From: a virus
Direction: 5' to 3' (one strand)
Virus record (IMG/VR): IMGVR_UViG_3300037258_000352
Coordinates: 40,287 to 104,286 of that record
Length of the DNA stretch: 64,000 nucleotides
Below, in pieces: positions 8,294 to 59,967 of the stretch. The notes under the pieces were generated by a model. That model was not told the origin of the DNA. It saw only the letters and a program-made list of their open reading frames with translations, and did no database searches. The position numbers and the translations under genes were made by a program. Within the stretch, counting starts at the first letter, position 1; each line of letters starts with the position of its first letter.

Positions 8294-8295
8294 GA

Positions 8296-9138: not shown

Positions 9139-9531
9139 TTACGCGGCGTTACGCCGACGGTTGCCGCCGTTGTTCTGATTATTGTTCTGTCCACCCTGAC
9201 CGTTGTTCTGGCCCTTCCGGGAACGGCTCGGGACGAACACGGCGCTGAGGATCCCTTCCGCGTTGCCCATCATTTTCGAGCAATGCGACATCAGCAACGC
9301 GGACCGGTGAAGGTCCCGAGCGATTCGAGCTGCCGCTTGCTCCTTCTCTTTCTGCGACATCAACGCCCCCCGCGACGGGGAATGAGCGAGACGCTTTTTA
9401 GCGACCCGGGAAATGATTTGCATCTCCATTCCAGCGTTGAGGAACAAGTTAGCCATGTCGTGGATCCATGCGCGCATCGCACCGGGGTCACGCAATACTG
9501 CTTCGTCCGCTGTGCGCCTCGTGATACCCAT
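9139..9531 (-). CDS. Small Asn/Gln-tailed protein of the transfer-like module
   Basis: 130 residues. The first 90 are helical, with MSQKEKEQAAARIARDL in the centre. The last 30 are a disordered Gly/Asn/Gln repeat ending in a basic run. It may bridge DNA and the membrane proteins around it. No family recognised. Confidence 0.6.
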   Translation of the reverse strand: MGITRRTADEAVLRDPGAMRAWIHDMANLFLNAGMEMQIISRVAKKRLAHSPSRGALMSQKEKEQAAARIARDLHRSALLMSHCSKMMGNAEGILSAVFVPSRSRKGQNNGQGGQNNNQNNGGNRRRNAA

Positions 9532-10970: not shown

Positions 10971-11099
10971 CGGTGCTGGTCCTTTCCCCGTAGGTTGTTT
11001 GGTGGTGCCGTCCGGTCGAGGTCTGTAATCGGCGCCCGACCGGACAGCACCTTGTGATGTTACATCCCTACGTGTTAGCACATGCGACACCCGGTCACG

Positions 11100-11137: not shown

Positions 11138-11974
11138 ATGACGGGATCAATCGGGGCCGGGCTACGCCGGCGACAACTCGCGGAGATACTCACCGAGCTC
11201 CGCAAGACCAGCGGTAAAGACCAGGTCGCCGCTGCTGCGGCGTGTGACTGCTCCCGACCTCAGATCAGCAATTTCGAGTCCGGGAGATACGTCCCGAGCC
11301 GGTTGGAGCTCCCCGCCCTGCTGGAGTGCTACGGCGCGCTGGACCGGCTCCCTGAGCTGGAGGAACTCCGGGCCGCGGCGAACGAACCAGGCTGGTACTC
11401 GACGTATGGCCTGCCGGTGTGGTTGCAGTCCTATGTGCGGCTTGAGGACGACGCGATCCAGGTTCGGTGTTTCGCGTCTGGTCTGGTCCCGGGGCTGCTG
11501 CAAACCCAGGACTACGCCCGGACGGTTCAGCAGGAACACGGGGCCAGCACCCCGGAGGTTCAGCGGCGGCTCGCGGTCCTCGCGGGACGGCAGAAGCGGC
11601 TAGGGATAGGGATGACCCTGTCCGTGGTGGTGTCGGAGGCGTTGCTGCACCTGACCGTGTGTATGGGTGAGGTGGGGGTGGAACAGCTCGCGAGTCTCGC
11701 GGCGACGAGGGTCGCGGAGGTCCTGGTCCTGCCGTACTCGGCGGCCCTGACGCGGGGGATCGGTCACTGGACGGTCCTCGACTTCCCGATGGGGGTGTCC
11801 CCGGTCGCGTATGAGGAACATGCGATCGGTGGGCACCTAGCGGATGATCGGGGACTGGTAGGGAAGTTGGCCTCGCTGTATCAGGAGCTGCACTCCGCGG
11901 CTCTATCAGTGGAGGACAGTGCAACGAAGATCAGGCAGGTCATGGGTCTAACCAAGGAAGGGACAAGGCGATGA
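11138..11974 (+). CDS. XRE-family regulator with DUF5753 domain
   Basis: 278 residues. Residues 10-70 form a Cro/CI-type helix-turn-helix (DQVAAAAACDCSRPQISNFE). The remainder matches DUF5753, the ligand- or partner-binding region seen in the large actinomycete family that pairs with DUF397 proteins. Some of these pairs act in development and some as toxin-antitoxin-like modules (Scr1/Scr2). It is divergent from the transfer-like operon and may control both directions. The start is leaderless-like. Confidence 0.85.
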   Translation: MTGSIGAGLRRRQLAEILTELRKTSGKDQVAAAAACDCSRPQISNFESGRYVPSRLELPALLECYGALDRLPELEELRAAANEPGWYSTYGLPVWLQSYVRLEDDAIQVRCFASGLVPGLLQTQDYARTVQQEHGASTPEVQRRLAVLAGRQKRLGIGMTLSVVVSEALLHLTVCMGEVGVEQLASLAATRVAEVLVLPYSAALTRGIGHWTVLDFPMGVSPVAYEEHAIGGHLADDRGLVGKLASLYQELHSAALSVEDSATKIRQVMGLTKEGTRR

Positions 11975-41472: not shown

Positions 41473-42227
41473 CCGACGCCACCGAACGTGAGGACACCCT
41501 GCGACAGTCGGGCTGTCACCGCCCGTTCACACTGCGCTTCCCGCTTCTCGAACCCGATCGCACGCCGGCCCGTCGCTCGAGCTGCGACCAGCGTGGAGCA
41601 GCTACCAGCGAAGCAATCAAGGATCAGACCACCCAGTGGACAGCCGTATTCAATCAGAGGCTCAAGGATCCCCCGTGGCTTCTCAGTCTCGTTAATAGCG
41701 GTGCCGTGCATGGATCGTGAGTAGATGACCGAGCCCATCATGCGAGGACCACCGTTGTGACTCACATAGGAACCAGAGTCGATGTGCCCGGTGTGGGCCG
41801 GTTGTGCCTTGCGACGGACCTGCTTCTTGACTGCATCCTGCGTCGTTGGGGCGAGATGGTGAACGTCCGACCACGGACCTCGGTACCAGTGCGTTGCGTG
41901 CTCATGCATTCGCCGGAATCGGTCAGCGTGGAACGTTGACCCGTTGTGCTTCTCCCACACCACGTCCTGCGAGAACTTCCAGCCCGTGAACTCATCCCGC
42001 CTATCGAGGAACATCCGCATCGACCCGAAACACCACATCGAGTTCCCCGGGATCAGCGACGGCCACCCAGCGGGCCACCGGTCCCAATCCAGACTCGTCT
42101 CCCCGTACGGGGGATCACACACGGTGAGGTCCGGGACGATCCCCAACTCGGGGAGGATGTCCCGGAAGTCCCCGCAGTACAACGTGACCTCGTCGTCGGC
42201 GTAGTAGGGCTCCGGGCGGGTCACCAT
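41469..42227 (-). CDS. DNA methyltransferase (DPPY, beta-class-like)
   Basis: 252 residues. VCDPPYGETSLDWD is the catalytic DPPY and LDCFAGSCSTLVAARATGRR the cofactor-binding motif of the N6/N4 methyltransferase family. The order DPPY before FxGxG fits the beta class. Middle region (residues 80-180) should choose the target. ATG overlaps the helicase stop. Confidence 0.85.
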   Translation of the reverse strand: MVTRPEPYYADDEVTLYCGDFRDILPELGIVPDLTVCDPPYGETSLDWDRWPAGWPSLIPGNSMWCFGSMRMFLDRRDEFTGWKFSQDVVWEKHNGSTFHADRFRRMHEHATHWYRGPWSDVHHLAPTTQDAVKKQVRRKAQPAHTGHIDSGSYVSHNGGPRMMGSVIYSRSMHGTAINETEKPRGILEPLIEYGCPLGGLILDCFAGSCSTLVAARATGRRAIGFEKREAQCERAVTARLSQGVLTFGGVG

Positions 42228-44614: not shown

Positions 44615-45248
44615 CCCGACGCAAATCCGGGCCCCTGAACGGGACCACCGTGGCCGACTCCATCAGCCGGGACGTCACCCGCTCACCGAACTTCTCACCG
44701 AACTCACTAGGCGGAACATTCGTGGTGATCAAAGTCGGGCGCATCCACTCATACCGGGCATTAATCAACCGGTCGAACACCTCATCAGTCCACGCCGAAT
44801 CCTTCGTTGCGCCCACGTCGTCGATGACCAGGACCGACGCCCCAGCGAGGCCCTCGAACACCTCTTCCGAGTCCACCCCCTGCCGCGGCCGTAACGACGC
44901 GAACAACCCCGTCGCCGTCACAAACTGCCACCGGCAATACACCCCCGACACCGACAAGGCCCGCAACGCCCCCCACGCCTGCCAAGACTTCCCACGACCG
45001 GCCTTACCCGCCAACACCAACGACGGTCCCGACCGGATCACCGGGTACTGGTTCCGCATCCCATCGACCGCTTCCGCGATGACATCCCGGACCCACCGGT
45101 CAACCTGCGGATCGGTCACGGTCGCGTCCCGGTGCCGGGCCGGTAAGTGTTCCTGCAGCCGGGTTCGTCCTTCCTTGTCGGCTTCCTCGATGGCGTAATC
45201 CGCTGCCCCATCGTCGGTGGTGACCCGCACTATCACCGCATCACTCAT
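44595..45248 (-). CDS. DnaC/IstB-like helicase loader ATPase
   Basis: 217 residues. Walker A AGKAGRGKS and Walker B VLVIDDVGATK, followed by ERVTSRLMESATVV with the Arg finger region, match DnaC-like AAA+ loaders that place DnaB on DNA. ATG follows GACACGGAGG (45258-45267), whose first bases are the stop of the gene upstream. It lies just upstream of dnaB. Confidence 0.85.
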   Translation of the reverse strand: MSDAVIVRVTTDDGAADYAIEEADKEGRTRLQEHLPARHRDATVTDPQVDRWVRDVIAEAVDGMRNQYPVIRSGPSLVLAGKAGRGKSWQAWGALRALSVSGVYCRWQFVTATGLFASLRPRQGVDSEEVFEGLAGASVLVIDDVGATKDSAWTDEVFDRLINARYEWMRPTLITTNVPPSEFGEKFGERVTSRLMESATVVPFRGPDLRRGVPGVR

Positions 45249-45265
45249 GATCGTTGTCCTCCGTG

Positions 45266-46204
45266 TCAGTAGTTCATCGGCGCGTCATACGCGTCGTCCG
45301 CGAGGTGCTCGAAATGCCGCGCGTAACCTCCGCTACCCCGCCTATCGCTGCCCGAGCGCCCAGCGTTACCGACCGTGGCCGGCTCGTCCTCCCACCGCTG
45401 CCCGTTGAGCCACGTCGTCGCGTGCGCCACGTAGGACCCCGTCCGGTGCAGCTCCACGACGTACCGATCCAACCCAGCCATGATCACATCCGGGTCGGCT
45501 GCCTTGATCGCTTTCGGCCACGCCTTCCACGCGTCCTTCTTGGCCGTCTTTCGGGGGTAAACCGCCCAGAACTTGGCGAAGGTTTCCTCGGCTTTGCGGT
45601 TGATCGGGACAACCGGCCTAGACGAGGTCGGTGAGGGCATCCCGTCCAGCGTTCCCTGTCCGTCCTGGCTGGGGTTGGCCTGCGCCGCGCGCGCGGGTGC
45701 GCCTACGCGTGTGTGCGCCCGCGCCCGTGGAGAGATGATCTCTTCGTTAGAAGAGATCAAGGGGTTAGTGGTCGGTTCCACTGGTCGGTTAACTTCAAAA
45801 GAGTCTTTGGCCGGCTCAGCAGGTGAGCCGGGGGGGGCCTGCAGGTGAGCCGGGGGGGGCTCAGGGATGGACCGGGGGGGGCTCACCTTTGGTGGGAGCG
45901 TCGAAATGTGGAAGTTCCACCCGGCGAGCCCCCCGTCACTTCTGGTCCGGGCGGTCTTCGCGACGACGTTGATCTCTTCCAGTTTCACCATCGCTCGTTT
46001 GTAGGAGGAGACGCTGAGGCCGGCTCGTTCAGCGACCGCTTCTCGGCTGGGGAAGCAGTCACCGCCGCTGTCGGCGAAGCTGCGGAGCGCGATGTAGACG
46101 CGGAGACTGGCGCCGTCGAGGTCGTATTGGAGTAGCCAGATCGGGATGATCGAGTACGGGCCGATGTCTGTGGTGACCCGGGAGTTCTCTTGCTGTTCGC
46201 TCAT
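45266..46204 (-). CDS. Replication-initiator-like winged-helix protein
   Basis: 312 residues. The N-terminal 100 residues are a winged helix (SREAVAERAGLSVSSYKRAM) as in phage replication initiators. After a disordered linker, FWAVYPRKTAKKDAWKAWPK and YVAHATTWLNGQRWEDE give the C-terminal helical part found in such initiators and DnaD-like proteins. It should recognise the origin and recruit the loader. ATG overlaps the previous stop as ATGA. Confidence 0.75.
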   Translation of the reverse strand: MSEQQENSRVTTDIGPYSIIPIWLLQYDLDGASLRVYIALRSFADSGGDCFPSREAVAERAGLSVSSYKRAMVKLEEINVVAKTARTRSDGGLAGWNFHISTLPPKVSPPRSIPEPPPAHLQAPPGSPAEPAKDSFEVNRPVEPTTNPLISSNEEIISPRARAHTRVGAPARAAQANPSQDGQGTLDGMPSPTSSRPVVPINRKAEETFAKFWAVYPRKTAKKDAWKAWPKAIKAADPDVIMAGLDRYVVELHRTGSYVAHATTWLNGQRWEDEPATVGNAGRSGSDRRGSGGYARHFEHLADDAYDAPMNY

Positions 46205-46884
46205 CGGGAGCCACCGCCGACGACGTTGGTCCATTCGTGATCGAACTCGATGCGGATCCCGGACCCGTGTTGATTTCTAGGCGCGTTCACTCCGTGGTGG
46301 TATGCGCTGACGGCAGGACCGATCAGTTCGAGTGGATCTTCGGACCCGAAGTCGAACCACTCACCGTGTGCTCGATAGCGAGCCAGAGTGCAATGCAGGT
46401 GCGCCTCCAGGGCGTATCCCCCGGGTGTAGTCCACTGAACTTCTAGCGGAGCCGGCGACATGTTTCGGATCGAACGGAGCCGCGCCGACACGTTCTTGGT
46501 GCGTCCGATCTTCACAAGGCGGCTGGTTGATGAACCGATTAGGTAGACGACCTCTCCGGCCACGGGAGAGCGGGGGGCGGTCACCTTCTGCGCCCCTCGC
46601 GTCCCGGTCAGTGCGCTAGCTAGTAGCGATGGGATCGTCCACGAGATGTGTCCCGCAGGATGCTCGTCTACTTCGAGTTCTCCCAGCGTGACGAGGTTGT
46701 TCACGGATTGTCGAGTTGTGGCGAGATCTAGCCGGGCTAGGTCAGCTACTTGCTGGTAGCTGCCTGCGACTCCGGAGTGGTCGTCGCCACCTCCGCTGCA
46801 CTCGGTCAAGCAGAGGAAGACGAAAACGTCGGTGCTGGTGGCAGCAGAGTTCCGCCAGACCCATGCGGTGGTGCGGGCGCTCAT
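46201..46884 (-). CDS. HTH plus T5orf172/GIY-YIG-type protein
   Basis: 227 residues. The N-terminal 80 residues have a winged helix similar to that of the next gene (VADLARLDLATTRQSVNNLV). The C-terminal 100 residues (GEVVYLIGSSTSRLVKIGRT, then LEAHLHCTLARYR, GEWFDFG) match the T5orf172 GIY-YIG-like domain. It could be a nuclease that acts at or near the origin. The combination next to an initiator gene is unusual. Confidence 0.7.
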   Translation of the reverse strand: MSARTTAWVWRNSAATSTDVFVFLCLTECSGGGDDHSGVAGSYQQVADLARLDLATTRQSVNNLVTLGELEVDEHPAGHISWTIPSLLASALTGTRGAQKVTAPRSPVAGEVVYLIGSSTSRLVKIGRTKNVSARLRSIRNMSPAPLEVQWTTPGGYALEAHLHCTLARYRAHGEWFDFGSEDPLELIGPAVSAYHHGVNAPRNQHGSGIRIEFDHEWTNVVGGGSR

Positions 46885-49112: not shown

Positions 49113-49179
49113 TTGACGGGTGACCCGTTGGGTGTACGGTGGTGGGGTTGGTAGCGGACCAACACCCCTGACACGGAGG
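49113..49179 (+). promoter_or_regulatory. Class A promoter, leader hairpin and RBS for the rightward transfer/late genes
   Basis: TTGACG (49113-49118), 16 bases, TACGGT (49135-49140), hairpin GTTGGT-AGCGG-ACCAAC, GACACGGAGG (49170-49179). Confidence 0.75.
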
Positions 49180-49186
49180 ACCAGCA

Positions 49187-49252
49187 ATGCCCGATATCCG
49201 GACTCGTATCCACGGCGAGCCACCCATGGCTGAAAGCGAAGGTGGACGGTGA
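49187..49252 (+). CDS. 21-residue leader-like frame
   Basis: MPDIRTRIHGEPPMAESEGG plus Arg, after the cassette; its stop overlaps the next GTG as GTGA. Probably a coupling frame for the acidic-protein gene, or a genuine miniprotein. Confidence 0.45.
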   Translation: MPDIRTRIHGEPPMAESEGGR

Positions 49253-50214
49253 GCGCACCTGAACGGTTAACCAGCGGAAACAACCCAGTAGCGGTGCAGG
49301 TCGAGGAACCGAAACCAATCTGGTGGAGGTCGTTCATCGCGCAGCTCACCGGCCGGACACTGGACCGCGCTGTCGAGGTCGACGAGGTCGATCAGGATGA
49401 GGCGGTCGACCCCGAGTCCACGGAACCCGACACCACAAACACCATCGCTGGTGACGATGCCCCGGTTGGTGAACCGCTAGAAGCGGAACTCGTCGACGAG
49501 ATCCCCGCGCCAGCCGAGCCCGAGGTGCGGCCGGCGGACGAGACCGAACTCGAAGTCCTCGACGCGGAATTGGTTGAAGACCCACCGACCGTCGCCGCGG
49601 TCCCCGAGATAGCCGAGGTGGCCGACACACCGGTGGTGGAGATCCCCGACGTCGTTCACGTTCCCGAGGTCGAGGAGGTGGAACCGGAACCCGCTGCCGA
49701 GGTGGTTGAGGTCCCCGAGCTGGACGTTGCCCCCGCCACCGTGGTGTCGGAGCCCGAAGTTGAGGAGCCGGTCACTGTTGTTGAGGCACCGACACCCGAG
49801 TTGGAGGCCACCGACCCGGAGGTCGCAGACCCAGAGCCCAACGCAACCGTCTACGTGGAGGTCGAGGTAATTCCGTGTGACGACACCCGGGCCCCGTCTG
49901 GGCCGGTCAAAGATCGTGATGATCTGACGGAACGGTGGGTAGACGAACTCCGCAACGGAGGCCACCGCCAAGCACACGGGACGTGGGAAGACCGGGGCGT
50001 ATTCGGCGGCAAGAGTGAGTGCACCCTGCAGGTCGCCATCAACACCTATGACATCCCACTCGGTGAGCTGCGGGACAAGTACGGGGATCGGTTCATCGGG
50101 GAGGTACTCACCCGCAACGACATCGAGAGGCAGTCATTCGATCAGATCGCCGACTACATCGAGCGGACGCAACTGTCCCGGTCACGCCGGAAAGAAATGG
50201 AGATGGAGCGATGA
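49249..50214 (+). CDS. Acidic Pro/Glu/Val-rich protein of the transfer-like module
   Basis: 321 residues. Residues 40-210 are a low-complexity run of Pro, Glu, Val and Asp (VPEVEEVEPEPAAEVVEVPE type). The C-terminal 100 residues look folded (DLTERWVDELRNGGHRQ to YIERTQLSRSRRKEMEME). It probably spans a long distance as a flexible arm next to the coupling ATPase encoded downstream, by a 4-base overlap. Confidence 0.7.
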   Translation: MSAPERLTSGNNPVAVQVEEPKPIWWRSFIAQLTGRTLDRAVEVDEVDQDEAVDPESTEPDTTNTIAGDDAPVGEPLEAELVDEIPAPAEPEVRPADETELEVLDAELVEDPPTVAAVPEIAEVADTPVVEIPDVVHVPEVEEVEPEPAAEVVEVPELDVAPATVVSEPEVEEPVTVVEAPTPELEATDPEVADPEPNATVYVEVEVIPCDDTRAPSGPVKDRDDLTERWVDELRNGGHRQAHGTWEDRGVFGGKSECTLQVAINTYDIPLGELRDKYGDRFIGEVLTRNDIERQSFDQIADYIERTQLSRSRRKEMEMER

Positions 50215-51878
50215 CCGGCAAAACCGCAGGGTTCGCCGCTGCCGCCGTCGGTGCCGTCGCGCTCGTCGGGTGGTTCACCCACCCCGTCATCACCGTCGTT
50301 ACCTGCGTCGCACTGGCGTTGCTGGTCGGGTGGGGATCGGTGTGGCGCTACCAGCACGCTGGGTCCGCGACCCTGATGAGCCGGTGGACAGAACGGTCCC
50401 AGAAGCATCACGGGGTCGCGTCCGCCTGGTCGATCCTGCGGGTCTCCTCGACCTGGGCGGCCCGCCGGAAAGCGAAGGTCCTCCTCCCCGGCGTCACCGG
50501 ACGGGTCCACCACAGTCATCTCGCTACCCGATTGATCCGAGTCGGGTGGGTGTGGGTGGTGTCCACCGTTGAGCAACACACTCTGCGGTTCGGTGGGCCT
50601 CGACAGGGCAAGTCCGGGGAGTTGGGGACCCGGATCCTCGGCCCTGGGGCGGTCCTGGTCACCAGCACGGGCGGGGACCTGATCCGCAACACTGCGGCAC
50701 TCCGCGCCCGGGTCGGGCCGGTGTACGTCTTCAACCCCTGCAACATCGGTGGGATCAAGTCAACGGTCAGCTTCGGTCTCCTCGACGGGTGTGAGGAGCC
50801 ACCGGTCGCGGTGGCCCGCGCTACTGATCTCATTTCGGGGACACCGATGGGGCAGTCACATCGGAACGAGGAATGGGTCGAGCAGGCTAATTCGGCGCTC
50901 GCGTCGCTGATGCATGCCGCAGCGCTCGCCGGGAAAACGATGCACCACGTCCAACGGTGGGTCGCGGACCCCGACGGGGCCACCGCCGAAGTGCTGCGGT
51001 ACCTGAAAGCTTCCCCGGAACCGGCTATGGGATTTCAGGCGTTGCAGTTTTTCAATTCCGGTCGACCGCAGGCCTCGATCTGTATGACGATCATGCCGGC
51101 GTTGCGGTGGCTCGCTGATCCGGTGGCTACGAGATGCGCGGAGGCAGGGTCGTTCGACGTGGAGAAGTTCCTCAACGAGCAGGGCACGATCTATCTCCTC
51201 GCCGAGAAGGATGGGCTCGTGGCACCGTTGGTGACGGTATTCGCTGGTCACATTCTCCGCTCCGCACGCCGCATCGCTGATCGGCGCCCGCACGAACGGT
51301 TGACCCCCGGGTTCCGGGTGGTGCTCGATGAGGCCCCGTCGATCTGCCCCCTGCCGCTGCCGTCGTGGACCTCGGACATGGGTAAGCGGAACATCTCCAT
51401 GCACATCGGGGCGCAGTCCCTGTCACAACTGAAAGCCAGGTGGGGGGAGAACGGTGCGGGGGCGATCCTCACCAACTGTGGGACGGTGATGGTGTTCGGT
51501 GGAACGAAAGACACCGCCGGGCTGAGTACGTTCTCTACCCTGGCGGGGGAGCGGCATGAGGGCGGGAACCGGGCTCCTCTGTTGACGCCGGCGCAGTTCC
51601 AGCAGCTCTTGCCGTTGCATGCGGTGGTGTTCGCTAACGGGATTCTCCCGGTGATCGGGAAACCGGCGATGGTGTGGGATCGACGTGACTTCAAAATGGC
51701 GCGCCGGACCGCGGTGTGGTCCCCGAGGTTGGCTGCGGTGACCGGGCCGGTGAAGACGTGGCTGCGTCGTAAGCCAGTCCCAGTACCACCCCGGCGGATG
51801 GCTGCGCTGCCCGCTGGGTCGCCGGTGAAAGCGGAGTGGAAACCAGGCGTCACCGTTGGAGGCGACAGGAATGCCTAA
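50211..51878 (+). CDS. VirD4/TraG-type coupling protein
   Basis: 555 residues. Two N-terminal membrane segments (about 7-40), a Walker A of GPRQGKS type near residue 125, and a Walker B in FRVVLDEAPSICPLP near residue 370 with MHIGAQSLSQLKARWGENGA following. This is the pattern of type IV coupling proteins, which connect DNA to a secretion channel in conjugation. It is unusual next to phage terminases. Overlaps both neighbours. Confidence 0.85.
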   Translation: MTGKTAGFAAAAVGAVALVGWFTHPVITVVTCVALALLVGWGSVWRYQHAGSATLMSRWTERSQKHHGVASAWSILRVSSTWAARRKAKVLLPGVTGRVHHSHLATRLIRVGWVWVVSTVEQHTLRFGGPRQGKSGELGTRILGPGAVLVTSTGGDLIRNTAALRARVGPVYVFNPCNIGGIKSTVSFGLLDGCEEPPVAVARATDLISGTPMGQSHRNEEWVEQANSALASLMHAAALAGKTMHHVQRWVADPDGATAEVLRYLKASPEPAMGFQALQFFNSGRPQASICMTIMPALRWLADPVATRCAEAGSFDVEKFLNEQGTIYLLAEKDGLVAPLVTVFAGHILRSARRIADRRPHERLTPGFRVVLDEAPSICPLPLPSWTSDMGKRNISMHIGAQSLSQLKARWGENGAGAILTNCGTVMVFGGTKDTAGLSTFSTLAGERHEGGNRAPLLTPAQFQQLLPLHAVVFANGILPVIGKPAMVWDRRDFKMARRTAVWSPRLAAVTGPVKTWLRRKPVPVPPRRMAALPAGSPVKAEWKPGVTVGGDRNA

Positions 51879-52500
51879 GGGGTCGCGCCCTACGCGCGGC
51901 CGTCAGCGCACCGAGATAAGGATCAGACGGGACGCGGTGTCACCGCGTGCGGACGGAGGAACTGGCATGTCTTATAAGCGGATCCTGACCGGGGAGTTCG
52001 CGATCACCCCACCGCTGTCGTGGGGGGTTTATCACCACCTTGACCAGATGGACGAGGAAAAGGACTGCGTCCTGCAATTCGTTGAGAACATCAAGACGGT
52101 GGACCGGGAGGACGGGCAGCTCACCCAACGGTCCGCGAGTGGGATCATCCCGTCCACCGGTGAAGCGTGGCGTGACCCTTCGATCGAGCTTGCGGACATC
52201 GTGAAGCTGTGCCAGAGCTTGTGTTCCAAGCTGGTCGGTGGGATGTACTCCGTCGGCGAGGACGGACCGCTTGACACCTGGCGGTACTACACCGACAACC
52301 GTGGCCAACTGGTGAAGGACCAGGCGATCCTGGTGTGGCCGGACGGCCGGCGCGCGTACCAGGCGATCCCACGGTCGGAACTGCCCGGGCAGGAGTCCCT
52401 CAGCGGGTATGCGTTGGTCCTGGGCAGTGACGGGCCGACGGCGTGGTCCTCGCCGATCGACCCGGCGCAGATCATCACGGGGGCACCGTGGCAACGCTGA
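51871..52500 (+). CDS. Protein of unknown function after the coupling protein
   Basis: 209 residues from ATG 51871 (GGAGG 8 bases before); ATG at 51967 also has a good site (GGAGG). Basic N-terminus, then YHHLDQMDEEKDCVLQFVEN and a C-terminal beta part. No family recognised. Confidence 0.65.
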   Translation: MPKGSRPTRGRQRTEIRIRRDAVSPRADGGTGMSYKRILTGEFAITPPLSWGVYHHLDQMDEEKDCVLQFVENIKTVDREDGQLTQRSASGIIPSTGEAWRDPSIELADIVKLCQSLCSKLVGGMYSVGEDGPLDTWRYYTDNRGQLVKDQAILVWPDGRRAYQAIPRSELPGQESLSGYALVLGSDGPTAWSSPIDPAQIITGAPWQR

Positions 52501-52946
52501 ATTGGTCAACGAAGATCCCCGTCGCCCGGACGATGGGCGAGATCCAGCAGATGCTCGCAGAGCACGGCGCGGCCGGTGTCGCGACTCGCTACGTCGACAA
52601 AGAACCCGTCGGGGTCCAGTTCGCGCTGGACACCCCGCACGGACGGCGAACGTTCAACCTGCCCGTGGACATCGACGCGATGCACCAACTCCTGACCCGA
52701 CAGTCCCAGGCCGGGGAGATCCGGGGGACCTTGTCCGTCGGGGTGGTGCGCTCGAAGGAACACGCCGGTCGGGTGGCGTGGCGAGTCGTGAAGGACTGGC
52801 TCGCCGCGCAGCTCGCGTTGGTCGCTGCGGAGATGGCGTCCCTGGAGACGGTAATGCTCCCTTACCTGGTCGTGGACCACACCGGGACGACGCTGCACCA
52901 GCGGTACCTCGAACGTGGCCTGCCCGCATTGGAGGTCGGGTCATGA
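52488..52946 (+). CDS. Conserved-looking protein, unknown function
   Basis: 152 residues; a small alpha-beta fold (EIQQMLAEHGAAGVATRYVD, then helical VKDWLAAQLALVAAEMASLE). GTG start overlaps the previous stop. No family recognised. Confidence 0.7.
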   Translation: MATLNWSTKIPVARTMGEIQQMLAEHGAAGVATRYVDKEPVGVQFALDTPHGRRTFNLPVDIDAMHQLLTRQSQAGEIRGTLSVGVVRSKEHAGRVAWRVVKDWLAAQLALVAAEMASLETVMLPYLVVDHTGTTLHQRYLERGLPALEVGS

Positions 52947-53131
52947 CAGATCCGCAGATGGAGGAGCCCGTCTCGGTCTCTCCCGACCGTATCGGTGCAT
53001 GTCCGCACTGTTCATATCGTTGTGCGGTTCGGTGGATACGGACCGGGGAGGACAGTCGAGTACCGATTAACGATCCGTTATGCGGAGCCCGACCGGGGGA
53101 CGGATGTAGAACACATCCGGTCTCGTCATGA
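52943..53131 (+). CDS. Zinc-binding small protein
   Basis: 62 residues with IGACPHCSYRCAVRW and a later C-GARPGDGCRTHP. ATG overlaps the upstream stop as ATGA. Confidence 0.6.
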   Translation: MTDPQMEEPVSVSPDRIGACPHCSYRCAVRWIRTGEDSRVPINDPLCGARPGDGCRTHPVSS

Positions 53132-53625
53132 CTCGGCCCATGCTCGTGATTTACCGGGGCCTGCCAGGGTCGGGGAAGACGGTCCGTGCCAAAGCTGAGG
53201 TTGTCCAACATCCCCGCGGCGCGGTCGCCCGCGTCAACCGGGACGACATCCGGCAGCGGGTGTTCGCTACCGAATACCTCCCCGGTACGGGGGCGTTCGA
53301 GGGTCTGGTCACCGTCGCGCAGCACGCCCAGATCACGGCGCTGCTCCACGAAGGGGTGACCGTGATCTGCGACGACACGAACCTCTACCCGGAACACATC
53401 GCAGCTCTCATGCGCGTCGCGGTCGCGGCTGGCTGCGGATGGGAGATCCGGGACTTCACTCACGTCCCGGTGTCGACGTGCATCGCTCGGGACCGGACCC
53501 GGCTGCTGTCACCCCACGGTGGTTACGTCGGGGAGGAAATCATCCGCCGCATGTACGACAAACACTCCGTCGACGGGTGGGCTCCGATGCCCGTCCCTGA
53601 CCTGACCCTGGGGGTCACCGAATGA
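53128..53625 (+). CDS. Polynucleotide 5'-kinase-like P-loop protein
   Basis: 165 residues. YRGLPGSGKTVRAK is the Walker A motif, VNRDDIR and VICDDTNLYP are typical of the kinase domain of T4 polynucleotide kinase. It should phosphorylate DNA or RNA ends in repair. ATG overlaps the preceding stop as ATGA. Next to a DEDDh exonuclease. Confidence 0.75.
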   Translation: MTRPMLVIYRGLPGSGKTVRAKAEVVQHPRGAVARVNRDDIRQRVFATEYLPGTGAFEGLVTVAQHAQITALLHEGVTVICDDTNLYPEHIAALMRVAVAAGCGWEIRDFTHVPVSTCIARDRTRLLSPHGGYVGEEIIRRMYDKHSVDGWAPMPVPDLTLGVTE

Positions 53626-54383
53626 GCCCGACCCTGCTGTTCGCGGATCTCGAAACCACTGCTCTCACAGACGACGCGACCATCCTCGAAGCAGCGTGGG
53701 CGTTGACGGACGTCACCGGCCGGCTACTCGTGCCGCTGCGGTCCCGTTTCTGCGCGATCACCTCCGACCTACCGACCATTCCGTGGAAACGCAGCGCGAA
53801 CCGGGAACCGGTGTGGGTCGCGGACATCGCCCCCGGCCGCGACCCCGCCGCGCAGCAGATGGCCGTGGACTCCGGGCTGTTCGATGCGTGGCTCGCGTGC
53901 CCCGCGCACCGCCGGCTCCGGACCGGTGAGGAGCTGCAGCGGCTGATCCTCGACGACATCGACTCGGTGTGCGACCCGGACACCACAGTTCACCTCGCGG
54001 GGTCCGGGGTCGCGCAGTTCGACCATCCGCTGTTGCGGTTGCACTGCCCGGAGCTGGTGGTCCCGCGTGGGGAGTTCGGGGGCCCGGTCCATTACCGGAC
54101 CGTGGATCAGTCGGTGACGCTCACAACGTTGACGGGGGTCAGTAACGAGCCGATGACCACCGCGCTGATCGGGTGGTACTTCCGGCTCGATGGGTCCACT
54201 GACCCGGACATTCCACTCGCGATGCGCCCGCAGTACGCCTACAGCGACGACGTTGTGATGGCGTGGATGACGGGGGAACGTGGTAAGCACCGAGCCGCCC
54301 CGGACGTCGCTCGGGCGATCGTCGCGCACCGGGCCCTGTGGGCCTATGGGGCGTCGCTGCGAACCGATCTGGGGATCACATGA
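53622..54383 (+). CDS. DEDDh-type 3'-5' exonuclease-like protein
   Basis: 253 residues. LLFADLETTAL (DxE), GSGVAQFDHPLL (Asp in motif II) and HRAAPD (HxxxxD in motif III) give the DEDDh set of oligoribonuclease or DnaQ-type exonucleases. It may degrade RNA or DNA ends. ATG overlaps the kinase stop as ATGA. Confidence 0.75.
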   Translation: MSPTLLFADLETTALTDDATILEAAWALTDVTGRLLVPLRSRFCAITSDLPTIPWKRSANREPVWVADIAPGRDPAAQQMAVDSGLFDAWLACPAHRRLRTGEELQRLILDDIDSVCDPDTTVHLAGSGVAQFDHPLLRLHCPELVVPRGEFGGPVHYRTVDQSVTLTTLTGVSNEPMTTALIGWYFRLDGSTDPDIPLAMRPQYAYSDDVVMAWMTGERGKHRAAPDVARAIVAHRALWAYGASLRTDLGIT

Positions 54384-54493
54384 ACCGGCTCTTGTGGACG
54401 GCGGGGATCCTCACTGCGGTTCTGGCGTTCGTTTCGTTTCTGCTGTTGCTGCAGGCCGGGATCCGGCTTGGGGAGGTCACCGGTGGACGGTAA
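54380..54493 (+). CDS. Single-pass membrane miniprotein
   Basis: 37 residues with one hydrophobic segment (about 4-27). ATG overlaps the previous stop as ATGA; the next GTG starts 11 bases before its stop. Holin-like small proteins have this shape, but location before packaging genes is not diagnostic. Confidence 0.6.
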   Translation: MNRLLWTAGILTAVLAFVSFLLLLQAGIRLGEVTGGR

Positions 54494-54662
54494 CGACCCG
54501 CTCGGGGTCCGGAAGTCTAAGCCGTGGATGTGCCCGATCAAAGCGCACGAAGACCGGGCGTTGCTGCAGCATCTCCCGTTTGTTGAGGTCCGGGACGGGG
54601 TGTCGTACTGCACTTATTCGGGGTGTAAGCGGTCCAGCGTGGACGGCTTCTCCCGCAGATGA
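54483..54662 (+). CDS. Small Cys-containing protein, unknown function
   Basis: 59 residues, MDGNDPLGVRKSKPWMCPIK start, with MCPIKAHEDRALLQHL and YCTYSGCKRSS; one zinc-finger-like unit. Coupled to neighbours on both sides. Confidence 0.6.
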   Translation: MDGNDPLGVRKSKPWMCPIKAHEDRALLQHLPFVEVRDGVSYCTYSGCKRSSVDGFSRR

Positions 54663-54937
54663 TTCACGAAAGGACAGGGCTGATCATGAACGGTAATAGT
54701 GGGTTCCGGTCGGTGCTCAGTGAGTTGCTGATGCGGTTAGCGATGTGGACTGATCCGACGGGGCACCGCGCGGAGACCGCAGTCCCCCCTGGGATGGACC
54801 GGGACATGCCAAGGATGAGGTTGGAGCCGGTCGAACCGCCGTATTCCGACGCTGACCCGCTGCGCCCCGCGGTCCCCACGCAGCAGTCCCCCACCCGACG
54901 GCCGCGACCTGCGTCGCGTGGGAACGTGAAGCGGTGA
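54659..54937 (+). CDS. Small protein with disordered C-terminus, unknown function
   Basis: 92 residues; helical start, then Pro/Arg-rich disordered end. ATG at 54659 overlaps the previous stop; 54686 is an alternative. Confidence 0.6.
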   Translation: MIHERTGLIMNGNSGFRSVLSELLMRLAMWTDPTGHRAETAVPPGMDRDMPRMRLEPVEPPYSDADPLRPAVPTQQSPTRRPRPASRGNVKR

Positions 54938-55470
54938 CCGCGGACCCAGTGGTCCCGGTCAACGACGCGGGGCAACTCAGGACCCGCCTGGCCGGGTCAG
55001 TAGCGGACGTGGCTCGACTGTTCACACTGCGGGAACACCTGATCACCGCCGCGTGGGACGCGGGGATCGGGATCAAGTCGATCCGGGACACCGCGCAGAT
55101 CCCGACAGCCCGGACTGTTGACGACATCGTCAAGGAATACGCAGAGGAGCAGCGGGAGGTCATGTTCGCGGCGACTGCGGAACTGTGGAAGACCGGGCAG
55201 GTCATTCAGGACCGGTACGGGTTGCGGTGGCGCGCGGACACCAACATTTCCAGTGGGGAACGTGGATGGTTCTGCCGGTCGGTGGGGTTGAAGGTGTTCC
55301 TCACGGGGACACGGATGGCTGAACGGGGACCGTTGACCCTGATCCGTCAGGACCGGGTGTTCGCCGGTGAGACCGGGTCAGCGGAACGCCTCGCTGCGGT
55401 CGCCGCGAGAAAAGCAGGAGAAGTGGAAGACCAAGCCGTCACCGTGACCCCAGCGGAGGACCCAGAATGA
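54934..55470 (+). CDS. Protein of unknown function with helical N-terminus
   Basis: 178 residues. LREHLITAAWDAGIGIKSIR may be a helix-turn-helix part; the later GERGWFCRSVGLKVFLTGTR is beta-rich. GTG overlaps the previous stop as GTGA. Confidence 0.65.
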   Translation: MTADPVVPVNDAGQLRTRLAGSVADVARLFTLREHLITAAWDAGIGIKSIRDTAQIPTARTVDDIVKEYAEEQREVMFAATAELWKTGQVIQDRYGLRWRADTNISSGERGWFCRSVGLKVFLTGTRMAERGPLTLIRQDRVFAGETGSAERLAAVAARKAGEVEDQAVTVTPAEDPE

Positions 55471-55718
55471 CACCGTCCAGGTGGACGGGGAAACGATCCC
55501 GGTGCGTGAACTGCCGGCCGTTCGCTGACACCCCCTCCACCCATGTCGTGAAGCTCCCACCGGCACGGTGGTCATCGTGGGACCCCAGCTCAGCCCACGC
55601 CGAGCAGATCGTGAGGTTCCACCTCAGCGTCGGTGTCCCCGCCCGCGCGTACCGGTACCGGAGGATCCGGGGGACCCAACCCCGCCCCATCCCGAAAGTT
55701 CTGATCAGCGGTTACTAA
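55467..55718 (+). CDS. Small basic protein, unknown function
   Basis: 83 residues; CVNCRP near the start and RAYRYRRIRGTQPRPIPKV at the end. ATG overlaps the previous stop as ATGA. The last gene before a terminator. Confidence 0.6.
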   Translation: MTPSRWTGKRSRCVNCRPFADTPSTHVVKLPPARWSSWDPSSAHAEQIVRFHLSVGVPARAYRYRRIRGTQPRPIPKVLISGY

Positions 55719-55742
55719 CCCCCTGCGGCACCCTGGTTGACG

Positions 55743-55797
55743 GACCCGCCCCCGTGATGTCGTCCACCCCGACTCATCACGGTAGGCGGGTCGTTTC
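55743..55797 (+). terminator. Compound hairpin terminator
   Basis: GACCCGCC pairs with GGCGGGTC, and within it GTGATG pairs with CATCAC; a GTTTC tail follows. It ends the transfer/metabolism transcript before the DNA-modification genes. Confidence 0.65.
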
Positions 55798-55810
55798 ACG
55801 TTGTGTGACC

Positions 55811-55918
55811 ATGTGGCGGATTATTCGGGTAGGCGCTGGCGTGGTCCTGCTCGTGGTGATCGCTGCGGCGATGGGTTTCGGCGTCCTGCTCGGGATCCTG
55901 TACCTACTGTCCGTTTGA
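55811..55918 (+). CDS. Single-pass membrane miniprotein
   Basis: 35 residues, one hydrophobic segment from about 6 to 33. ATG 55811; no good ribosome site. First of three consecutive membrane miniprotein genes. Confidence 0.5.
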   Translation: MWRIIRVGAGVVLLVVIAAAMGFGVLLGILYLLSV

Positions 55919-55928
55919 GGAGGACACG

Positions 55929-56075
55929 TTGATCGCTCTGATCGTGCTGGGCTTGCTGGTTTGGGCCGCGCTCATCGTCGTGGGGTTCTTGGTTAAGAGC
56001 CTGTTCGTGCTCGGCATCGTGGGGATCGTGTTGTTCGTTGTCACCGCTGGTGTAGGTGTCGCGAAGCTGCTGTAA
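55929..56075 (+). CDS. Small membrane protein
   Basis: 48 residues with two hydrophobic segments. TTG start 6 bases after GGAGG. Unknown role. Confidence 0.6.
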   Translation: MIALIVLGLLVWAALIVVGFLVKSLFVLGIVGIVLFVVTAGVGVAKLL

Positions 56076-56229
56076 CTGCGACCGTGCTGGGCCTACAGGT
56101 GATAGAGACCCACTGGTAGGCCGTTGATACGACACCACCCGCAACCCACCCGATCGGGTGGCGTGGGTGATAAAACTGAGGGTCGAACGTCCCTCAGGCA
56201 CCTATACAACCCGGAAAGAGGCCCCGCCG
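56076..56229. other. Structured non-coding stretch between two membrane genes
   Basis: Three inverted repeats: GGCCTAC with GTAGGCC, perfect palindrome CCACCCGATCGGGTGG (56147-56162), and CTGAGG with CCTCAG around GTCGAACGTC. It may be a regulatory RNA, terminator or protein site. No gene is visible. Confidence 0.5.
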
Positions 56230-56385
56230 GTGATAGCTCTCGGTGTGATCCTGTTGATCCTCGGTTACGTCTTCGGGATCTCGATCGTCTGCGCTCTGGG
56301 GTTCATCCTGCTCATCACAGGTGTGATCCTGCTGCTCCTCGGGGGCTTCGGCCGGCCTGTCGGCGGCCGCACTTGGTACTACTGA
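56230..56385 (+). CDS. DUF6131 small membrane protein
   Basis: 51 residues. IALGVILLILGYVFGISIV then LLITGVILLLLGGFGRPVGG match DUF6131, a small two-span membrane protein family of actinomycetes. GTG start after GAAAGAGG. Its family is common in hosts, so this may be captured cargo. Confidence 0.7.
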   Translation: MIALGVILLILGYVFGISIVCALGFILLITGVILLLLGGFGRPVGGRTWYY

Positions 56386-56477
56386 TCAGACCACGTGGAC
56401 GGCGGTACGACAACTCGTTGACCTGCTGAAAGTTACCCCCTCCACACCGGCGGGTAACAAACCCCCGGAGGGCCATC

Positions 56478-57002
56478 TTGCCGACCCATGACTTGACCGT
56501 GGAACACGTCCCAGTCGGTGACCTCCGCACCTATCACCGCAACCCCCGACGCGGGAACACCACCGTCATCGCCCAGTCCCTGACGATCAATGGGCAATAT
56601 CGGACGCTGGCGGTGAACCGCGGCACCCACACCGGCCGCCCGAATGAGGTCCTGGCTGGGAATCACACGCTCATCGCGGCACGTGACCTTGGGTGGGACA
56701 CCGTCGCGGTCACCTACGTCGACGTCGACGACGACGTAGGTGACCGGATAGTGGCAGCGGATAACAGAACCGCGGATTTGGGGGAGTACGACGACCAGCT
56801 TCTCCTGGAACTCCTCGCGGACCTCCCCGACCTCGACGGCACGGGGTACGACCCAGGAGCGATCGCGGATCTAGAGAAGGCCCTCACGGAGCCGCAATTC
56901 GATCCAGAAGGGGACGACGCTCGACTCGACCGGAAGTCGGTCACCGACTGCCCCAGCTGCGGACACACGTTCACCCCCACAACCAGATCCATCACCGAGT
57001 GA
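56478..57002 (+). CDS. ParB-like domain protein
   Basis: 174 residues. VEHVPVGDLRTYHRNPRRGN, then ALAGNHT-like LAGNHTLIAARDLGW and ADNRTADLGEYD match the ParB/Srx-like nuclease fold used by many phages next to DNA modification genes. CPSCGHTF at the end is a zinc knuckle. TTG start 6 bases after GGAGG. Overlaps the Mom-like gene, so they are likely to act together. Confidence 0.75.
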   Translation: MPTHDLTVEHVPVGDLRTYHRNPRRGNTTVIAQSLTINGQYRTLAVNRGTHTGRPNEVLAGNHTLIAARDLGWDTVAVTYVDVDDDVGDRIVAADNRTADLGEYDDQLLLELLADLPDLDGTGYDPGAIADLEKALTEPQFDPEGDDARLDRKSVTDCPSCGHTFTPTTRSITE

Positions 57003-57703
57003 GGCGTCCTGTGTCGACTATCGCCCCCTGCGGTCGAGACGCAGCCCTCTATGCCGTCACTCATTGGCACTACACCAAGAAACTCCCCGCCGGTCGCCTC
57101 GTGTACCACGGGGTATGGGAACTCGATCAGCGCTACACCGGGGCCGTCATCTACGGGCGCGGAGCGAACGACCGCATGTCCAAGATGGTCGGCCTCACCC
57201 AAGTCGAATGCGCGGAACTGGTCCGCGTAGCTCTCCGCGACCACACCGCGCCCGTGACACAGATCCTCGCTGAGTCGATCCGACTACTCCGGTCATCGAA
57301 CCCGGGACTCCGGGCGATCGTCTCTTACGCCGACCCGGGGCAAGGGCACCACGGAGGTATCTACCAAGCCGGGAACTGGTTGTACCTGGGACTCGGGACG
57401 CTGAACAAAGAGTTCGTCATCCACGGACGCCAGATGCATCTCCGATCAGTCCACGCAGCGGGATGGAAACAATCCCTCGCGTGGGTCCGCGCCAACGTCG
57501 ACCCACGCGCCTACGAGGTCACCCCGCCCAGGAAGCACCGCTACGTCTATCCCCTGGACAAGCCCACTCGCCGTAAGACGACCAAACTGTCCCTGCCGTA
57601 CCCCTCTGCGGTCGAAGCGTCGGAGGTGACGCGCCCCGGTTCCATCGGGGAGGGCCGGGTTCAACTCCCGGCGACCGCTCAGCCCTTCCCGGAGTCAACA
57701 TGA
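56999..57703 (+). CDS. mom: Mom-like DNA-modification protein
   Basis: 234 residues. HWHYTKKLPAGRLVYHGVWE, VGLTQVECAELVRVAL, and VSYADPGQGHHGGIYQAGNW then LHLRSVHAAGW match the Mom protein of phage Mu in motif order. Mom transfers a small acyl-like group onto adenine, making DNA resistant to restriction. GTG at 56999 overlaps the ParB-like stop as GTGA. The gene lies just before the terminases, so it can act on DNA to be packaged. The basic C-terminus is extra. Confidence 0.8.
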   Translation: MRRPVSTIAPCGRDAALYAVTHWHYTKKLPAGRLVYHGVWELDQRYTGAVIYGRGANDRMSKMVGLTQVECAELVRVALRDHTAPVTQILAESIRLLRSSNPGLRAIVSYADPGQGHHGGIYQAGNWLYLGLGTLNKEFVIHGRQMHLRSVHAAGWKQSLAWVRANVDPRAYEVTPPRKHRYVYPLDKPTRRKTTKLSLPYPSAVEASEVTRPGSIGEGRVQLPATAQPFPEST

Positions 57704-58197
57704 CGGAACCTAAGCCCGACCTCCCGCAAACCACGCGACGTCAAAACCGTGGGAACAAGGGCGCCACCGTCACCACTAGCCCTGAAGCCATCGCCCGTCG
57801 GGAACGGGACTTGAGATGTGTGGAGCTCCGCAAGGCTGGTGCGACGTGGCAAGCGATCGCGGACACGGTGGGTTACGCCGACCCCGGGCACGCCTACCGC
57901 GGGTTCCAAGCGGTGATGAAGGACTACCCCCGTGAGGATGTCGAGACGGCCCGGAACATCATCAGCGACCGGTATGACGCGATGATCCGCGCCCTGTGGC
58001 CGAAGGTGTTGAAGGGTAATGAGTGGGCGATTGACCGGGTCACCCGGATCTCGGAAGCGCAAGCGAAGCTGCTCGGGGCGAACCGACCGGAGCGGGTGGA
58101 GATCTCGGTGGGTGCGACGGAGCTCGACGCGGCGTTGCGGGAGTTGGAGACGGAGATGAAGGCCCGGGCCGGTGGCGCACCAGTCCCGGTGGAGTAG
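57700..58197 (+). CDS. terS: Terminase small subunit
   Basis: 165 residues. KAGATWQAIADTVGYADPG is a helix-turn-helix near residues 45-65 and the helical middle (RYDAMIRALWPKVLKGNEWA) is the oligomer core. It should recognise packaging sites and activate the large subunit. ATG overlaps the previous stop as ATGA and the large subunit starts 6 bases later. Confidence 0.75.
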   Translation: MTEPKPDLPQTTRRQNRGNKGATVTTSPEAIARRERDLRCVELRKAGATWQAIADTVGYADPGHAYRGFQAVMKDYPREDVETARNIISDRYDAMIRALWPKVLKGNEWAIDRVTRISEAQAKLLGANRPERVEISVGATELDAALRELETEMKARAGGAPVPVE

Positions 58198-58203
58198 CAG
58201 GTA

Positions 58204-59967
58204 GTGCCGAGGGCGATCCACACGCTGGTCGCGGAGGCTGAGCAGGAGTTCGGTCCGGTTGGTGCTGCCCGGTTAGCGGAGAAGATTCGGTGCAAAGCCC
58301 GGCGGATGCGGATCCTGCGGGAGTGCCCGACGCCGGGGGCTCTTGCTCAGCGGTTGGTGCCGGACACGGTGCAGACCCCGATGCTGGATCGGGTCGACGC
58401 CGCGATCGTCGCTGCTGATGCTGGGACGCAACGTCGGTGGATCATCAACACGCCACCGCAGGAGGGGAAGTCCACCCGGATCTGTCGGGACGCTGCCCTG
58501 TGGTTGCTGCTGCGGAACCCGGACCGGCGGATCATCATCGCGTCGTATCAGCAGAACCTGGCGGAGGTATCGACCCTCGGGGTTCGTCGGCTAGTCGAAA
58601 CCTACGGGTCGCGGCCGGGGGATCCGGAGGAGAACAACCTCCTCGGTCTCGCTGTGGAGCGGACCCCGTCCGCGGCGGGGAACTGGCGCGTCGCCGGCCG
58701 TGAGGGCGGGATGATCGCTGTCGGGATCGGGTCGGGTACCACGGGACGGCCGGGTGACGTGATCGTCGTCGACGACCCCCTCGCGGACGCGGAAGCCGCG
58801 GACTCCCCGGTGCAGCGGCAGAAGGTCATCGACTGGTGGACAACGGTCGTCCAGTCCCGGCTGGTGGCCACGTCGATCGTGATCGTGGTCCAAACTCGTT
58901 GGAACGAGGCGGACCTGTCCGGGTGGTTGATCGACAACGATGGGACCGGTACTGGTCGCGACGCCCCACGGTATGAGGTCCTGTCCGTCCCCGCGCAAGC
59001 CGAGGCCAACGACCCGTTGGGGCGTGAGGTCGGGGAATGGCTCCGTTCCGCTCGGCAACGCACCGTCGAAGAATGGGAAGACACCCGCAAGGAAGTCATC
59101 AAGGGCGGTGTCCGGTGGTGGTTCGCGCTGTATCAGCAGCGACCGGCGCCACCTACTGGTGACACGTTCAAACTGGAATGGTTCGACCGGGACCGGGTGT
59201 GGGAACGCCCCCCCGGCCCACCACCGGTGGTGGTCATCGACCCCGCTGATAACACCGGGTCGGGGGATGAGGCGGGGATCATCGTCGCGTCCACCGACGT
59301 CCGTAACCAAATCTATTTAGGCCCGGACTACTCGGGGCATTACACCGTCGGCCGGTGGGTGCGTGTCGCTCTGCTCGCGGTGGCGCGACATAAAGCGGGG
59401 TCCCTGGTGTATGAGCAGTCCCTCGCTGGGCTCGCGCGGGACGTCGCGTACGGGTGGGACCAGCTCCACAAACAGGCCCGGATCCTGCGGCGGCTGAAAG
59501 CCACCGTGGTCCTCGACCCCGTCATCGTGGAGACCGCGGTCGGGGAGTTGTGCACCCTGGAGGACACCGATGACACCCGCGCGCAGTACCGCGCGGAGTT
59601 CATTGAGGTGTGGCCCCTGGTCGACGCGATCCTCGCTTACCCATCCACGGGCCCGTCGATCCGTCGGATCATCCCGAAGGGAACGAAAGCGTGGCGCGCG
59701 CAAGCCGCGTCACCCCGGTATGAGCATCGGGGTGTGTCGCACATCGGGGCGTTGGCTGAGTTGGAGCATCAGATGGTGACGTGGATGCCCGGCCAGAAGT
59801 CCCCGGACCGGATGGACACCGCGGTCCACGCTGTGCTGCTGCTGTCGGGTGCGTCGGTCGCGGTCCTGTCGTCGCCGAGTAAAACCCCGGAGCTCCCCAC
59901 CCGATCCACCCGTAACCCCAACCGGCGCGGTGGTGCGCTACCCCGTTCCACGATGACTCGCCGGTGA
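58204..59967 (+). CDS. terL: Terminase large subunit
   Basis: 587 residues. The ATPase half has PPQEGKSTRICRDA as Walker A-like, then VIVVDDPLADAEAADSP with Walker B, and VVQTRWNEADLSGW as coupling motif. The nuclease half has VVVIDPADNTGSGDEA (RNase H-like Asp). It cuts and drives DNA into the capsid. GTG start is used. The end reads RRGGALPRSTMTRR. Confidence 0.9.
   Translation: MPRAIHTLVAEAEQEFGPVGAARLAEKIRCKARRMRILRECPTPGALAQRLVPDTVQTPMLDRVDAAIVAADAGTQRRWIINTPPQEGKSTRICRDAALWLLLRNPDRRIIIASYQQNLAEVSTLGVRRLVETYGSRPGDPEENNLLGLAVERTPSAAGNWRVAGREGGMIAVGIGSGTTGRPGDVIVVDDPLADAEAADSPVQRQKVIDWWTTVVQSRLVATSIVIVVQTRWNEADLSGWLIDNDGTGTGRDAPRYEVLSVPAQAEANDPLGREVGEWLRSARQRTVEEWEDTRKEVIKGGVRWWFALYQQRPAPPTGDTFKLEWFDRDRVWERPPGPPPVVVIDPADNTGSGDEAGIIVASTDVRNQIYLGPDYSGHYTVGRWVRVALLAVARHKAGSLVYEQSLAGLARDVAYGWDQLHKQARILRRLKATVVLDPVIVETAVGELCTLEDTDDTRAQYRAEFIEVWPLVDAILAYPSTGPSIRRIIPKGTKAWRAQAASPRYEHRGVSHIGALAELEHQMVTWMPGQKSPDRMDTAVHAVLLLSGASVAVLSSPSKTPELPTRSTRNPNRRGGALPRSTMTRR

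Follow-up and report, generated by a model that had tools for sequence, protein, structure and literature searches.

Phage genes and conjugation-type translocase genes on one circular replicon from an uncultivated-virus collection

The coupling protein operon and the terminase genes

The window, a stretch of 64,000 nucleotides, corresponds to positions 40,287-104,286 of a 104,286-bp virus record (61% of the record). An earlier note on this DNA had described a conjugation-type coupling ATPase and terminase genes in one genome, and this observation is confirmed as a whole. The coupling protein operon and the terminase genes, all on the plus strand, consist of the following features.

49144..49180, +: phage leader cassette heading the operon (stem GGGGTTGGT...ACCAACACCCC, then TGACACGGAGGA); a 20-codon ORF comes next
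49249..50214, +: acidic 321-aa protein, no Pfam, PHROG or NCBIfam match; its stop overlaps the start of the next gene by 4 nt, same operon
50211..51878, +: VirD4/TraG-type type IV coupling protein (T4CP), 555 aa; Pfam TraG-D_C 4.1e-20, T4SS-DNA_transf 3.2e-16
51856..52500, +: DUF6205 protein directly downstream of the T4CP gene; Pfam PF19708 2e-9
57700..58197, +: probable small terminase subunit, directly 5' of the large subunit gene; best PHROG phrog_645 3e-28, weak HTH match
58204..59967, +: large terminase subunit (TerL); phrog_38 5e-68, Pfam Terminase_6N 3e-6

Both Pfam matches of the T4CP exceed their curated cut-offs, and the protein has two N-terminal hydrophobic stretches (membrane segments judged by inspection) with an intact Walker A (GGPRQGKS) and Walker B (VVLDE). 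It also matches VirD4-like NCBIfam models, at scores below the equivalog cut-offs. Its nearest relatives are actinobacterial plasmid proteins. In an alignment with five plasmid proteins, to which it is 28-32% identical overall and 31-34% identical by BLAST, the Walker A lysine, the TST...D motif and the LDE of Walker B are kept. Judged by these domains and motifs, the product of 50211-51878 is a genuine VirD4/TraG coupling protein, as the earlier note had proposed. Of the two terminase genes that the note had placed at 57700-59967, the large subunit is established by its profile matches, whereas the small one is assigned by position only, its best PHROG being labelled RNase E.

The T4CP matched 582 plasmid records and 0 of 50,697 phage records, and it matched no PHROG; none of the five plasmid homologues matched a PHROG, and the Pseudonocardia plasmid homologue matched no phage record. 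PF02534 was absent from 13 terminase-bearing plasmids and from two phages with a related terminase or capsid. Sequence searches found no relative of the T4CP in related viral fragments or in the whole Pseudonocardia thermophila genome, and searches of IMG/VR with the T4CP's own peptides gave no close relative. The alignment contained no stretch conserved enough for a wider IMG/VR scan, and with DnaB as bait no relatives spanning the T4CP region were found. On these searches, a VirD4/TraG protein in a phage appears rare.

The cassette at the head of the operon belongs to a leader that is shared across the genome. In many cases this leader consists of a short GC-rich stem-loop (for example GGTCGGTGCGGACCGAC) with GACACGGAGGA after it, a few bases 5' of the start codon; 39 sites with up to 2 mismatches were counted, most of them just upstream of genes. 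About 30 sites lie in the window, for example 1357(-), 4147(-), 12351(+), 16321(+), 25631(-), 41139(-) and 49169(+). Sites occur on both sides of the TraB block described below, and the site at 49169 precedes the T4CP operon, so the same cassettes are indeed used on both sides, as had been noted. The leader precedes many accessory and early genes and not the structural genes, and it resembles the start-associated sequences of some mycobacteriophages. A phage sigma factor gene (window 47018-47668; phrog_1740 6e-19) adjoins the replication genes, and its product may read leader-associated promoters.

The 4-nt overlap with the upstream gene and the phage's own leader at the head of the operon indicate that the T4CP gene is built into phage gene expression. 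This bears on the possibility that the gene is a 'moron', a stray or decaying gene acquired from a MobF plasmid and now without a role in transfer, in which case only the TraB module would matter, or neither. The products of its neighbours at 49249-50214 and 51856-52500 show no similarity to the neighbours of plasmid-type T4CPs. The DUF2637 protein and the relaxase that accompany the gene on plasmids are missing around it, and this, together with its absence from the other phage records, the related viral fragments and P. thermophila, would fit such an origin. However, the reading frame and the conserved motifs are intact, codon use fits the phage (GC3 0.80), and the operon structure argues for an integrated gene. 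We consider the moron explanation unlikely.

The TraB module and its repeat array

A second group of conjugation-type genes lies near the start of the window.

6239..6404, no strand: array of 12 TGTCACGG-like sites (up to 1 mismatch) in mixed orientation, 166 bp; candidate clt (TraB loading site)
6402..6851, -: 149-aa protein with a HEAGH metalloprotease-like motif, end of the TraB operon
6848..8326, -: TraB C-terminal half, FtsK/SpoIIIE-type ATPase and C-terminal region; NF041214 positions 249-626 of 639, 1.3e-43
8296..9123, -: TraB N-terminal half (membrane anchor), separate gene; NF041214 positions 5-211 of 639, 4.6e-14; N-terminal part of phrog_24831
9139..9531, -: small basic protein of the TraB operon, no Pfam match
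9576..10079, -: small membrane protein of the TraB operon (hydrophobic stretches by inspection), no Pfam or PHROG match
10104..11090, -: membrane protein, homologue of TraB's companion on Streptomyces plasmids (DUF2637-like arrangement); 38% identity over 162 aa, 4e-17
11138..11974, +: HTH_31-DUF5753 transcriptional regulator, divergent from the TraB operon; DUF5753 8.8e-30, HTH_31 7e-11, NF058600 2.8e-30

The earlier note had placed a TraB/FtsK-like ATPase with DUF2637-like membrane proteins at 6.8-11.0 kb. The ATPase is borne out by NF041214 ('plasmid transfer protein TraB'), which covers the protein from its N-terminal membrane part to its C-terminal DNA-binding part over two adjacent genes. 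Neither half reaches the model's 800-bit equivalog cut-off, which makes this TraB a distant one, and identity to plasmid TraB proteins is only 25-33%; the TraB of Streptomyces plasmid NBC_01335 is 28% identical to the product of 6848-8326 over 509 aa, C-terminus included. The C-terminal region may be a winged helix. A single-sequence structure model of it has the order helix-helix-helix-strand-strand, but this model is weak (pLDDT 58), and the best PDB match had an E value of 0.6. As the profile coverage indicates, TraB is carried here as two adjacent genes. The downstream gene has a probable ATG start at 8293 with AGGAG upstream, right after the stop of the preceding gene, and a frameshift as the origin of the split is therefore less likely; a sequencing error retains a small probability.

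With regard to the membrane proteins, Pfam DUF2637 gave no score for 10104-11090, but direct comparison identified it as a homologue of the protein beside TraB on NBC_01335. Relatives of this protein were found on 23 plasmids. phrog_24831 and phrog_25954 are matched both by the plasmid TraB and its partner and by the phage pair, and on four Streptomyces plasmids (NZ_CP108371, NZ_CP108719, NZ_CP109457 and NZ_CP109463) TraB and the partner are neighbours, spaced about 1 kb apart. On its homologies and gene order, the block at 6.8-11 kb is a TraB transfer module of plasmid type, and the chances that it is functional for transfer seem to us evenly balanced.

The repeat array is intergenic and lies just beyond the TraB operon. 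Its 12 sites compare with 0.46 expected in 380 bp from the genome-wide density, and the densest local 7-mer cluster has 7 exact copies in 170 bp, against a maximum of 4-5 across 25 simulated genomes. A search with a guessed transfer-site sequence gave no match. Short-repeat arrays are common to replication iterons, partition sites, operators and clt, and the TGTCACGG array might accordingly be an iteron, a partition site or an operator for repression; the phage must have an origin, and an intergenic position would suit one. This alternative has a substantial though lesser chance of being correct, since the replication initiator gene is 40 kb away and the array directly adjoins the TraB operon, with a position and make-up like those of known clt sites. 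On Streptomyces plasmids, clt takes the form of short repeats arrayed next to tra, and that of pWTY27 has four TGACACC repeats (PMC3583192). By this analogy, the array at 6239-6404 is a candidate clt.

The replicon, its host and the possible modes of transfer

The first 127 bases of the record are identical to its last 127 bases, which closes the molecule to a circle of 104,159 bp. A length of 127 bases is also a frequent assembler word length, and the circle join was therefore checked independently against a relative contig. This contig, IMGVR_UViG_3300047090_000169 (44.5 kb), has 93-96% identity in most of the regions it shares with the record; it begins in the tail genes, includes capsid and portal, crosses the join and continues to the genes past the terminase. 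A second relative (17 kb, about 85%) likewise crosses the join. The window thus comes from a single real genome rather than from a junction between two contigs, which agrees with the single replicon proposed in the earlier note. An assembly chimera, or a prophage and an ICE lying side by side, is rejected as extremely improbable. The contig does come from an uncultivated-virus collection, and nothing else was found in favour of such a junction; against it stand the circle, the relative across the join, the leader that flanks the TraB block and also precedes the T4CP operon, the even GC content (0.62-0.70) and the absence of a detectable tyrosine integrase.

The rest of the element supplied the capsid and portal genes, and portal, major capsid, tail tube, head-tail adaptor, tape measure and endolysin were all found on the same replicon as the large terminase. 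The gene set, which includes the large terminase, portal, major capsid, tail tube, tape measure and endolysin of Caudoviricetes, is by annotation that of a complete long-tailed phage. A RecE-like exonuclease is also encoded. One replicon carrying phage genes and conjugation-type genes is well supported by the circle, the common leader, the independent relative across the join and the complete head, tail and lysis genes, and we regard this gene content and the single replicon as practically certain. The replication genes are ordinary phage primosome genes.

42221..44614, -: DnaB replicative helicase with an intein (LAGLIDADG endonuclease domain), by domain matches
44595..46234, -: DnaC-like loader (44595-45248; phrog_50 1.6e-31) and replication initiator (45266-46234; phrog_270 3.7e-42)

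The insertion in DnaB has LAGLIDADG and Hom_end domains, and PHROGs finds the same domains inside terminase families. A phrog_2045 protein (window 28516-29895) is apparently split by an HNH endonuclease-like insertion at about residues 134-297. Two structural proteins have composite architectures: a multi-domain head protein (L001:6855-9338) combines an RNA-ligase-like N-terminus with portal-family and protease-family matches, and the C-terminal region of a capsid protein (L001:11004-13151) repeats a domain that is also present in the adjoining tail protein. At window 56478-57703 a ParB-like gene, which matches ParB-like PHROGs and a nuclease family and is possibly a nuclease, is followed by a Mom-like DNA modification gene; this pair probably serves DNA base modification against restriction. 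A predicted tRNA-Gly (TCC; window 57608-57680) lies within the 3' end of the Mom-like reading frame, right before the terminase genes. A GmrSD_C (type IV restriction endonuclease) domain match was found at window 20974-21582 (6e-6). The small gene at 13270-13722 contains an in-frame GACGCA hexamer repeat (7.7 perfect copies, window 13275-13320), and its product is possibly a length-variable protein.

Among the bacterial genomes searched, the head and tail genes are closest to an element of Pseudonocardia thermophila. A full-length relative of the capsid protein (47%) occurred in one bacterial genome of the scanned collection, on a 28-kb P. thermophila contig whose head-tail module is syntenic, and the host therefore probably belongs to Pseudonocardiales or a neighbouring group. 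Phages of Rhodococcus, Gordonia and Mycobacterium have terminases with 33-35% identity to this one. Among plasmids, the terminase mostly matches Streptomyces phage-plasmids of 85-94 kb, and for this reason it is plausible that the element is itself a phage-plasmid. The closed circle with a replication initiator is weak evidence of this kind, because permuted lytic phage genomes have the same features. Against it, ParA (AAA_31) had no match and no tyrosine integrase was found in the genome, so that neither partition nor plasmid maintenance genes were recognised, and replication is of the ordinary primosome type. The earlier suggestion of a phage/conjugative hybrid or phage-plasmid thus holds for the hybrid gene content and is plausible for the plasmid state.

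No relaxase had been seen in the window, and this extends to the whole genome, in which PF08751 (TrwC-type) and PF03432 (MobA/VirD2-type) had no match and a HUH motif scan gave no believable gene. A motif scan likewise gave no candidate for the VirB4-like protein of a type IV secretion channel, the remaining P-loop genes being a kinase, the DnaC-like loader, DnaB and the terminase. Neither a cognate relaxase nor a VirB4-type channel for the T4CP was therefore found on the same element, and with ParA and a tyrosine integrase likewise missing, both a plasmid state and relaxase-dependent transfer are tentative. TraB-type transfer in actinobacteria requires neither a relaxase nor a type IV channel (PMC3218068, PMC12857230). 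The missing relaxase thus does not exclude conjugation, and TraB and its companions could work by themselves. For the VirD4/TraG protein, partners would have to come from a helper plasmid or the host; there are known cases of mobilizable elements that have their own coupling protein and reach the channel of a helper (PMC11389934).

The record is best explained as the complete circular genome of an uncultivated actinobacteriophage with acquired plasmid DNA-transfer genes, an explanation that as a whole we hold with confidence and doubt in equal measure. The phage might persist as an episome for part of its life, and the TraB halves and the membrane partner might assemble into a double-stranded DNA pump that loads at the TGTCACG array (clt). 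By analogy with the action of TraB for Streptomyces plasmids, such a pump would pass the entire phage circle, perhaps chromosomal DNA as well, un-nicked to a cell in direct contact, and the divergent HTH-DUF5753 gene would regulate the module. The VirD4/TraG protein could be a second, accessory translocase that docks phage DNA to the secretion channel of the host or a helper plasmid, with a relaxase supplied in trans, or that couples to another substrate. Its action in DNA transfer is possible but tentative. Points that count against the best explanation are that the T4CP is without the MobF relaxase and the DUF2637 neighbour of its plasmid relatives, and that TraB is split and only distantly similar to plasmid TraB. 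An actinobacterial phage, possibly a phage-plasmid, with TraB-type double-stranded DNA transfer is our best reading, and we would put it at an even chance; such a virus may spread in two ways, as viral particles and by passing directly from one cell to another. It is doubtful that the virus conjugates by two mechanistically different pumps, with TraB acting alone at the clt array and the first VirD4/TraG protein of a phage using a borrowed relaxase to send the phage genome through the type IV channel of a host or plasmid.

Both translocases might instead have been repurposed for host takeover or competition, for example with the T4CP engaging relaxosomes of the host or of plasmids, or the secretion channel, and so blocking conjugation by rival plasmids, or aiding DNA movement in the lytic cycle. 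The T4CP gene, 6.3 kb upstream of the terminase, points in the same direction, towards the packaging genes, and stands beside late genes, in a genome with no detectable relaxase. However, its leader type is common to accessory genes and not structural genes, the similar slot 5' of the terminase holds a TraB/FtsK-type transfer gene in pSLE1, NBC_00873 and pCQ3, and the related pZL12 needs a tra gene for conjugation (PMC3583192). Repurposing therefore seems quite unlikely to us, and TraB-type transfer remains the preferred reading.

Gene flow by phages and gene flow by conjugative elements are usually regarded as distinct routes. The two would coexist in a complete phage genome that has a VirD4/TraG protein and a TraB module of intact appearance, and actinobacterial phages would then be seen to draw on both families of translocase. 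Whether a phage genome can conjugate could be tested directly through TraB binding and clt-dependent transfer.

Comparison with known systems

The nearest known systems are the Streptomyces phage-plasmids pZL12, pSLE1, pSAM1 and pCQ3 (85-94 kb), which are mostly circular actinobacterial replicons similar in size to the phage described here and have a related large terminase (about 30-34%). Where examined, they carry a Tra translocase of the plasmid type, encoded a few kb before the terminase. In pCQ3, whose TerL matches the phage TerL, traA-traB lie about 4 kb upstream of TerL and TraB scores above the curated cut-off, and in pSLE1 and NBC_00873 a TraB/FtsK-like gene is just upstream of the terminase. 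In the phage, by contrast, it is a VirD4/TraG gene that lies upstream of the terminase, and the TraB module is located elsewhere; none of the 13 terminase-bearing plasmid records has a VirD4/TraG protein. The T4CP gene thus stands roughly in the slot of the TraB/FtsK gene of these phage-plasmids, which may be a like-for-like replacement or coincidence. A pSLE1 protein named 'type IV secretory system conjugative DNA transfer family protein' in RefSeq was considered as a precedent for the T4CP and rejected; it matches TraB/FtsK proteins and has no similarity to the phage T4CP. pZL12 is reported both to conjugate and to form phage, and its conjugal transfer depends on a tra gene together with two adjacent genes (PMC3583192). 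pSLE1, which shares synteny with pZL12 (PMC4487206), is reported to have ParA/ParB and integrases, unlike the phage, in which neither ParA nor a tyrosine integrase was found.

The Streptomyces linear plasmids pFRL2 and NBC_01335 have TraB with a membrane partner. Their TraB is homologous to that of the phage (28-33%) and matches the same PHROGs, and the partner of NBC_01335 is 38% identical. They have a single-gene TraB followed by the partner and are typed MOBF, whereas the phage has a split TraB in the reversed order and no relaxase. Close relatives of the T4CP (33-34%) occur on MobF plasmids of actinobacteria (Streptomyces GD-15H, Pseudonocardia pPA12743CP and Natronoglycomyces p1), where the T4CP is paired with a MobF relaxase and, in two of the three, has a DUF2637 protein nearby. 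In the phage neither lies near the T4CP gene, and capsid, tail and terminase genes are present instead. In the virus record IMGVR_UViG_2791355012_000001 (54,762 bp), genes for a related terminase and a DUF2637 protein lie near a weak TraB/FtsK match, and this record is possibly another phage with a TraB-like module.

Phages with conjugation-type genes are already known, as pCQ3, pSLE1 and pZL12 illustrate. As far as the searched collections show, what is new here is a VirD4/TraG protein in a phage, two types of translocase in one phage genome and a TraB split into two genes.
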